Origin: Pseudacidovorax intermedius
GTDB taxonomy: Bacteria; Pseudomonadota; Gammaproteobacteria; Burkholderiales; Burkholderiaceae_C
Assembly: GCF_001476815.1 (NCBI RefSeq)
Contig: NZ_LDSL01000051.1
Location: 62,001-126,000 of the forward strand
Direction: 5' to 3'
DNA: 64,000 nucleotides
The notes below the pieces were generated by a model. That model was given only the letters and a program-made list of their open reading frames with translations. It had not been told where the DNA came from and did not search any database. This document shows positions 53,123 to 55,567 of the stretch, in pieces. Position 1 is the stretch's first letter; each line of letters begins with the position of its first letter. The position numbers and the translations under genes are program-made.

Positions 53123-54229
53123 ATGAGCCAGGACTTCAACACCTTCGTCGGCACCCGTGCGGTGTCGTCCCAGCACGCCGTGGACCTGCAGGCCCTGGAA
53201 ACCTGGCTCGCATGGAACGTCGAAGGCTTCCGCGGGCCGCTGTCGATCGAGATGTTCAAGGGCGGCCAGTCCAATCCCACCTACAAGCTGCTCACGCCGG
53301 AGCGCCAGTACGTGATGCGGGCCAAGCCCGGTCCGGTGGCCAAGCTGCTGCCCTCGGCCCATGCGGTGGAGCGCGAGTACAAGGTCATGCATGGCCTGGC
53401 CGGCTCGGACGTGCCGGTGCCGCAGATGCTGGCGCTGTGCGAGGATGAGTCCATCATTGGCCGCGCCTTCTACGTCATGGAATGCATGCAGGGCCGCGTG
53501 CTGTGGGACCAGACCCTGCCGGGCATGTCCAATGCCGAACGGGCCGCCATCTACGACGAGATGAACCGCGTGATCGCCGCGCTGCACACGGTCGAGTTCG
53601 CCGCGCGCGGCCTGGCCGACTACGGCAAGCCGGGCAACTATTTCGAGCGCCAGATCGGCCGCTGGAGCAAGCAGTACAAGGCCTCCACCGACGGGGCAGG
53701 CGCCCTGTCGCAGCCCATCGACGAAATGGAGCGGTTGCTGGAGTGGCTGCCCACGCACATCCCCGCGAGCGCACGCGACGAATCCAAGGTCGCCATCGTG
53801 CATGGCGACTACCGGCTGGACAACGTGATGTTCGCTGCCGACGCGCCGCGCATCGTCGCGGTGCTGGACTGGGAACTGTCCACGCTGGGCCATCCGCTGG
53901 CGGACTTCGCCTACCACTGCATGTCGTGGCACATCCCAGCCGGTGCCTTCCGCGGCATCGGCGGCGTGGACCTGGCACCGCTGGGCATCCCTTCCGAGCA
54001 GGAGTACGTGCGCCGCTACTGCGAGCGCACCCGCCTCACCACGCCGCAGGCGCTGGCCGAGGACTGGAACTTCTACATGGCCTACAACCTGTTCCGCATC
54101 GCAGCCATCCTGCAGGGCATCGCCAAGCGGGTAGAGGCCGGCACGGCCTCCAGCGAGCAGGCCGTCAACTCGGCCAAGGGGGCGCGCCCCATGGCCACGC
54201 TGGCCTGGCAGTTCGCACAGCGCGCCTGA
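53123..54229 (+). CDS. APH-fold phosphotransferase (ACAD10/11 kinase-like)
   Basis: This 368-residue kinase-fold protein has the catalytic loop HGDYRLDNVMF and the metal motif LDWELSTLGHPLADFAYHC. GGQSNPTYKLLT is the N-lobe nucleotide loop. It matches the kinase half of human ACAD10/11 and LvaA-type 4-hydroxyacyl-CoA kinases. The ACAD half is encoded 63 bases downstream. Together they may phosphorylate a 4-hydroxyacyl-CoA and eliminate phosphate; this is inference. Confidence 0.9.
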   Translation: MSQDFNTFVGTRAVSSQHAVDLQALETWLAWNVEGFRGPLSIEMFKGGQSNPTYKLLTPERQYVMRAKPGPVAKLLPSAHAVEREYKVMHGLAGSDVPVPQMLALCEDESIIGRAFYVMECMQGRVLWDQTLPGMSNAERAAIYDEMNRVIAALHTVEFAARGLADYGKPGNYFERQIGRWSKQYKASTDGAGALSQPIDEMERLLEWLPTHIPASARDESKVAIVHGDYRLDNVMFAADAPRIVAVLDWELSTLGHPLADFAYHCMSWHIPAGAFRGIGGVDLAPLGIPSEQEYVRRYCERTRLTTPQALAEDWNFYMAYNLFRIAAILQGIAKRVEAGTASSEQAVNSAKGARPMATLAWQFAQRA

Positions 54230-54292
54230 GCGCCTTCACCACGGCCCGCCCCCCCTCTTTCACCCGTTCCCACACCCACCACCGGAGACAGC

Positions 54293-55567
54293 ATGGAGTT
54301 CGATTTTTCACCCAAGGTCAAGGACCTGCAGAAGCGCGTGAGCGACTTCATGGATGCGCACATCTTTCCGGCGGAGGCGGAATATGCCCGCGAGATGGCA
54401 GAGAACACGGCCGCCGGCAAGCGCTGGACCCATCTGGAGGTGATCGAACGCCTGAAGGAAAAGGCCCGCGCGCAGGAGCTGTGGAACCTGTTCCTGCCCA
54501 ACGACACCGCCGAACTGGCCAAGAAGAAGGGTGGCGGCCTGACCAACATGGAATACGCGCCCCTGGCTGAACTGATGGGCCGCGTGCCATGGGCGTCCGA
54601 GGTCTTCAACTGCTCGGCGCCCGACACCGGCAACATGGAGACCATCGCCCGCTATGGCTCGGACGCGCACCGCGAGGAATGGCTCACGCCGCTGCTCGAG
54701 GGCAAGATCCGCTCGGCCTTCGCCATGACCGAACCGGCCGTGGCCTCCAGCGACGCCACCAACATCGAGACCCGCATCGAGCGCCAGGGCGACGAGTACG
54801 TCATCAACGGCCGCAAATGGTGGATCTCCGGCGCCGGCGATCCGCGCTGCAAGGTCTTCATCACCATGGGCAAGAGCGATCCCGAGGCGCCCAAGCATTC
54901 GCAGCAGAGCATGGTGCTGGTGCCGGCCGGCACGCCGGGCATCAAGATCCTGCGGCCGCTGAGCGTCATGGGCTACGACGACGCGCCGCACGGCCACATG
55001 GAGATGGTGTTCGAGAACGTGCGCGTTCCTGCCAGCAGCATCCTGCTGGGCGAAGGCCGCGGCTTCGAGATCGCCCAGGGCCGCCTCGGCCCCGGTCGCA
55101 TCCACCACTGCATGCGCCTGATCGGCCTGGCCGAGCGCGCGCTGGAGCTGATGTGCCGCCGGGCCTCCTCGCGCGTGGCCTTCGGCAAGACGGTAGCCTC
55201 GCAGACCGTGACCCAGGAGCGCATCGCCGAGGCCCGCTGCCGCATCGACATGGCCCGCCTGCTCACCTTCAAGGCCGCCTGGCTGATGGACGTGGCAGGC
55301 AACAAGGTCGCCAAGACCGACATCGCCATGATCAAGGTGGTGGCGCCCAGCATGGCCTGCCAGGTGATCGACTGGGCCATGCAGGTGCATGGCGGCGGCG
55401 GCATGAGCGACGACTTCCCGCTCGCGTACGCCTATGCCAACGCCCGCACGCTCCGCTTCGCGGACGGCCCGGACGAGGTGCACCGCAACGCCATCGCCAA
55501 GTGGGAACTGGGCAAGTACGCGGCCGACAGGACCGCATCGGCCGAGCCGCCGGTCACGCGCTTCTGA
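54293..55567 (+). CDS. Acyl-CoA dehydrogenase family protein (ACAD10/11 type)
   Basis: This 424-residue flavoprotein has the ACAD core: [32 protein letters not shown], the [21 protein letters not shown]-terminal signature and [15 protein letters not shown]. The long N-terminal helix domain and short C-terminal tail fit the ACAD11 branch. It lies right after the APH-fold kinase gene, and the pair copies the domain pair of fused ACAD10/11. A strong terminator follows. Confidence 0.93.

Follow-up and report, generated by a model that had tools for sequence, protein, structure and literature searches.

In a 64,000-nucleotide stretch of Pseudacidovorax intermedius DNA (contig NZ_LDSL01000051.1, positions 62,001 to 126,000; hereafter the window), an APH-fold kinase gene is followed by a gene of the acyl-CoA dehydrogenase (ACAD) family. 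We predict with high confidence that the two genes encode, as separate chains, the activities that are joined in ACAD10 and ACAD11: a 4-hydroxyacyl-CoA kinase and a 4-phosphoacyl-CoA lyase. As judged from the sequence, the pair very probably lets the cell burn 4-hydroxy fatty acids through phosphorylation and subsequent removal of the phosphate. Both open reading frames (ORFs) are intact, lie on the forward strand and are separated by 63 bp. The first, at 53123–54229 with an ATG start at 53123, encodes the predicted 4-hydroxyacyl-CoA 4-kinase of 368 aa; the second, at 54293–55567, encodes an ACAD10/11-type flavoprotein of 424 aa, the predicted phosphate lyase that would convert a 4-phosphoacyl-CoA into a 2-enoyl-CoA. 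A first-pass annotation of this DNA had proposed an APH-fold kinase gene followed by an ACAD11-type gene; its positions were exact, and the two products are 40% (138/342) and 55% (220/397) identical to the kinase and ACAD domains of mouse ACAD11, respectively.

In such systems, according to PMC12440821 and PMC11342911, the CoA ester first receives a phosphate on its 4-hydroxyl from the kinase; the ACAD then takes the C2 proton, electrons are thought to go to the FAD and back, and the phosphate is expelled to leave a 2-enoyl-CoA. PMC11342911 also reports that a kinase and an ACAD of Burkholderia pseudomallei can each replace the corresponding half of ACAD10 on 4-hydroxyhexanoyl-CoA in vitro. 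In P. intermedius, the kinase would transfer phosphate from ATP to the 4-hydroxyl of a 4-hydroxyacyl-CoA, with D229 as the catalytic residue and N234 assisting. D391 of the ACAD would take the C2 proton, the FAD would cycle internally, and R264, H272 and R275 would hold the phosphate as it leaves position 4. The resulting 2-enoyl-CoA could then pass into ordinary beta-oxidation, whose enzymes other parts of the genome would provide.

The kinase matches the Pfam APH family at 5.2e-51. Among solved structures, only PDB 3dxp, a member of the same bacterial group, scores above mouse ACAD11 (521 bits, against 244 and 241 bits for 8v3v and 8v3u); its identity to the window kinase is 65% (231/356). 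The mouse residues D220 and N225 and the CoA-contacting R176, as named in PMC12440821, correspond in the alignment to D229, N234 and R176, all identical, with D229 and N234 encoded at 53807–53824 of the forward strand. The arginine adjoining the alpha-C glutamate is conserved as R84-E85 in the window kinase and its relatives. D229, N234, R84, E85, R176 and D249 are kept in all 132 loci with a kinase match, a set that also counts copies of the window and loci repeated from one genome. The nearest named relatives are kinases of Pseudacidovorax (90–91% identity), which places the window in Comamonadaceae and, on that basis, in the order Burkholderiales. The host genome (5.55 Mb, 99.97% complete) contains one kinase of this type, and its next three matches are partial and 31–34% identical. 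In the kinase tree, two APH paralogs from the host genome fall outside, and 3dxp groups with the kinases of the order Burkholderiales.

For the ACAD, which carries the Pfam domains Acyl-CoA_dh_N, M and 1, mouse ACAD11 is at the top of the solved structures with 475 bits, about three times the score of MCAD (about 150). The residues H235, R264, R269, H272, R275 and D391 are all identical to those named for the mouse enzyme in PMC12440821. The phosphate-binding helix, R264-x4-R269-xx-H272-C273-x-R275 (mouse R626, R631, H634, C635 and R637), is encoded at 55082–55117, and the predicted catalytic base D391 (mouse D753), an Asp at the position of the Glu that usually serves in catalysis, at 55463–55465, both on the forward strand. 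PMC12440821 reports that Ala or Leu in place of R626, H634 or R637 disrupted the ACAD step most. Every one of the 115 relative loci that gave an ACAD match has the seven-position signature HRRHCRD; these loci represent 101 distinct DNA sequences and include several pairs that are two views of one genome. The signature is found in none of the 12 ACAD-like genes of the host genome that were read, namely 11 of the 12 matches at E 1e-20 (L015 was left unaligned) and one gene on contig C228; at the position of D391 these genes have E (six), G (four), T (one) or P (one). The host has a single ACAD of the pair type, the 12 others at E 1e-20 being 27–35% identical to it. One of the paralogs, L009 (contig C5, 11937–12839), keeps R, R, H and C of the signature, with Ala replacing the final arginine and Thr the catalytic aspartate; it comes after an ORF read as ligase-like.

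A quick ACAD tree, rooted on 11 paralogs of the host genome only, several of them long-branched, places 24 pair-type ACADs together with PDB 4hr3 and mouse ACAD11 (SH-aLRT 99) and leaves the host paralogs outside. Mouse ACAD11 thus lies within the clade of bacterial pair-type ACADs, in keeping with the correspondence to the two ACAD10/11 halves that the first-pass annotation had proposed.

We also searched 200 genomes of the order, the host included, at thresholds of E 1e-60 for the kinase and E 1e-80 for the ACAD. The kinase was found in 55 genomes, the ACAD in 58 and both in 54. The sole genome with the kinase and no ACAD at the threshold, G138, carries a divergent ACAD (34%, locus L146) next to its kinase. 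In 28 of the 55 genomes (G138 uncounted) the two genes share a strand and lie no more than 200 bp apart; in the other 27 they are not side by side by that criterion. The association thus holds also for separated genes, which argues for one pathway independently of adjacency. Taken together with the residues present in both proteins and the in vitro results on the Burkholderia pair in PMC11342911, the co-occurrence in 54 of 55 genomes gives the phosphorylation and elimination chemistry, already put forward in the first-pass annotation, good support at the level of sequence comparison.

Several points weigh against this assignment. D229, N234 and D249 also occur in two unrelated APH paralogs of the host genome, which lack R84 and R176; being common to these paralogs, the three residues indicate an active kinase fold and not a substrate. 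The CoA-contacting residue called R86 in PMC12440821 does not fall on an arginine of the deposited mouse chain in our numbering, so its equation with R84 is uncertain. The position of mouse ACAD11 in the kinase tree is unsure because of long branches. Four genomes (G007, G032, G120 and G195) have an ACAD of the ACAD10/11 type (56–59% identity) although the kinase search at E 1e-60 gave nothing; a more divergent kinase may be at work in them. The statistics on the 200 genomes ignore shared ancestry, and the ACAD search behind them scored at most eight candidates per genome. Finally, neither the chain length nor the natural substrate can be predicted from the locus.

Compared with ACAD10 and ACAD11 of animals, the pair has the same two domains and all of the catalytic and phosphate-binding residues tested. 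It differs in being made of two polypeptides, in lacking a HAD domain and in lying in a bacterial cluster with a Crp/Fnr gene. The Burkholderia pair of PMC11342911 (kinase Q63VL0) is likewise a bacterial two-gene version, and its orthology to the P. intermedius genes is suggested by family membership and by the text of that paper rather than by alignment. With bacterial relatives of this kind already assayed there, the pair in the window is a good annotation and not a discovery. The closest solved kinase, 3dxp, has the sequence of an APH-fold kinase, yet it was deposited under a name that fits its partner, ‘putative acyl-CoA dehydrogenase’. A misleading name can here give way to a specific and testable function for a pair present in 54 of 200 sampled genomes, and the pair offers a genetically simple bacterial model for ACAD10/11.

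A Crp/Fnr-type gene (52338–53057; 239 aa; Pfam cNMP_binding and HTH_Crp_2) and a crotonase-fold gene (51498–52277; Pfam ECH_1) are located just upstream on the same strand, as the first-pass annotation had reported. The crotonase ORF ends at 52277; homology begins at 51498, and the longest ORF starts at 51372. Conservation of this neighbourhood was assessed in 80 loci from named records, mostly of Comamonadaceae, counting those with enough flanking sequence. The ACAD gene is downstream of the kinase gene in 78 of 79 loci, the Crp/Fnr gene is upstream in 78 of 78 and the crotonase gene in 66 of 78. Such an arrangement exceeds chance, and within Comamonadaceae the Crp/Fnr gene is a fixed neighbour. 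From its position, the adjacent Crp/Fnr protein is probably the regulator of the cluster. Palindromes of Crp/Fnr type in 40 upstream stretches scored 6.65 against 6.29 for shuffles (FNR-like), 6.48 against 6.45 (CRP-like) and 6.68 against 6.42 (TTGAC-type). These scores hardly exceed those of simple shuffles, and consequently we claim no binding site; scans for promoters and terminators gave results at chance level.

Named relatives commonly have one more gene ahead of the cluster, a 3-hydroxyacyl-CoA dehydrogenase gene found in 60 of 72 loci. This conserved gene of about 506 aa was considered as an acyl-CoA ligase, and proved to encode the dehydrogenase. The copy at locus L051 is PaaH-like, with 447.8 bits, under the PaaH cut-off of 669.4; the subfamily model that it does pass is PRK08268. 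The four Pseudacidovorax loci, which belong to the closest genus, resemble the window in having no such dehydrogenase and a FimV-like gene in its place. In the window the FimV-like gene (49177–51327, reverse strand; FimV_N match below its cut-off) abuts the crotonase gene and lies outside the module. The closest copy of the dehydrogenase in the host genome is 53% identical and on a different contig.

The crotonase is an unusual one. Enoyl-CoA hydratases have two catalytic glutamates. In the window protein, S115 and Y135 occupy both glutamate positions of PaaF (4fzw_A), and glutamate is at neither position in 82 locus readings. The protein passes the model NF046063, ‘oxepin-CoA hydrolase, alternative type’, with 375.8 bits (cut-off 300), and scores slightly higher, at 381.4, with the generic enoyl-CoA hydratase model PRK07511. 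The absence of both glutamates, together with the NF046063 match, argues against a plain enoyl-CoA hydratase acting on the product of the lyase. The alternative enzyme was predicted, according to PMC9007349, from Paraburkholderia fitness data on phenylacetate; the protein was needed for phenylacetate, and it has S118 and M135 where the rat hydratase has two of its catalytic residues. The corresponding residues of the window crotonase are S115 and A133.

These similarities raise the possibility, to which we give almost an even chance, that the crotonase gene, along with the 3-hydroxyacyl-CoA dehydrogenase gene in other genera, belongs to phenylacetate degradation and merely shares the locus. 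The NF046063 name agrees with the enzyme described in PMC9007349, both glutamates of PaaF are gone, and the dehydrogenase of the relatives is PaaH-like. Moreover, 12 of the 200 genomes have an NF046063 gene over the cut-off, and paaA is present in 11 of these 12, as against 31 of 200 overall. However, the crotonase gene is retained in the host genome, where a search for paaA (TIGR02156) at E 1e-40 gave no match, which makes a phenylacetate role doubtful in this organism and sets its crotonase apart from the NF046063 enzyme that it otherwise resembles. paaA is also absent from 13 of 38 named genomes searched that have the crotonase at the locus, and from 8 of 11 without it. In 10 of the 12 NF046063 genomes a copy and the kinase gene are less than 0.9 kb apart (G133 carries its copy on a different contig, and G178 is without a kinase), and the active site without glutamates is kept irrespective of paaA, in 25 of 25 genes with it and in 13 of 13 without it. 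The presence of paaA is thus associated with the crotonase and is doubtful as a simple explanation of it; the gene is tied to both systems, the 4-hydroxy acid pair and phenylacetate.

A more speculative reading, which we consider unlikely to prove right, concerns a third enzyme of 4-hydroxyacyl-CoA catabolism in Burkholderiales. The NF046063 crotonase without glutamates might be an isomerase or hydrolase whose substrate is what the ACAD releases or a side product of it, for example a 3-enoyl- or dienoyl-CoA, and might have been recruited separately for phenylacetate ring opening. If so, the crotonase and the Crp/Fnr gene, with a histidine-phosphatase gene next to the kinase in other families, would make up a regulated bacterial 4-hydroxy acid operon for which the open-access papers searched on ACAD10/11 offer no precedent; those papers also gave no bacterial study of this cluster. 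Its constant Crp/Fnr neighbour and its unusual crotonase offer handles on the inducer and on the steps after phosphate elimination.

The suggestion that the module may be a complete route for 4-hydroxy acids is not supported. Eight query proteins (three ligases, a 3-hydroxyacyl-CoA dehydrogenase, a thiolase, a zinc-type alcohol dehydrogenase, an SDR and a histidine phosphatase) were searched against the 64 kb at E 1e-5. Seven of them came from loci of relatives and one, a ligase, from another contig of the host genome; none gave a match. Judged by these queries, the cluster is not a complete route, and its crotonase is not a plain hydratase.

For levulinate degradation, also raised at first, the likeness lies in the reaction scheme. 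As described in PMC12440821 and PMC11342911, LvaA and LvaC of the Pseudomonas putida levulinate operon also combine a kinase with a subsequent phosphate elimination by a member of the ACAD family. LvaA is given as 29% identical to the ACAD10/11 kinases in PMC11342911, and the identity of the window kinase to mouse ACAD11 is 40%, two values obtained with different aligners. A complete lva operon, which would have an lvaE-type CoA ligase, an lvaD-type reductase and lvaB next to the pair, was rejected: at E 1e-5, the ligase, SDR, zinc-type alcohol dehydrogenase, 3-hydroxyacyl-CoA dehydrogenase and thiolase queries from other loci had no match in the window. The single DUF6285 gene of the host, which we take to be LvaB-like, lies on contig C228 beside a different APH gene.

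The pair may instead serve a low-flux salvage or detoxification of hydroxylated or oxidized lipid acids and not growth on levulinate, 4-hydroxyvalerate or lactones, a role to which we assign a somewhat less than even probability. It would fit the missing ligase and reductase matches in the window and the 27 of 55 genomes in which the genes are apart, and a low-flux role of the mammalian enzymes is discussed in PMC11342911. On the other hand, most named relatives have the cluster with other genes for CoA esters and with the Crp/Fnr gene, which suggests induction by a substrate.

An ordinary acyl-CoA dehydrogenase beside an unrelated small-molecule kinase of the APH fold, for example a drug-modifying one, is permitted by the general Pfam names and by weak matches to APH(3′) models, but it is very improbable. 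The APH(3′) score is only 32.9 bits where 205 would be needed to pass, and the co-occurrence of the two genes, the signature residues and the clade with mouse ACAD11 all speak against it. In PMC12440821, no ordinary dehydrogenase activity of ACAD10/11 was seen under the conditions used.

A further region of the host genome, on contig C228 from about 6 to 70 kb (L148–L151), is catabolic-looking. It holds three more APH-like matches, the DUF6285 gene, several ACADs and crotonases, and a thiolase, together with proteins that resemble HMG-CoA synthase and branched-chain-type transporters at scores under the cut-offs. The ACADs that were read from this region are without the ACAD10/11 signature.

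Beyond Comamonadaceae, the surroundings of the pair change. We selected 20 wide loci outside this family but within the order: none of them has the Crp/Fnr gene, five have the crotonase gene upstream and three the dehydrogenase gene. Six of them (L128, L132, L133, L135, L136 and L137) have a gene of the histidine-phosphatase family just upstream of the kinase gene, assigned by Pfam for L128 and by similarity for the others. The phosphatase-like HAD domain of ACAD10 is reported in PMC11342911 to restrain its kinase. By analogy, a phosphatase-type partner may recur in these bacterial loci.

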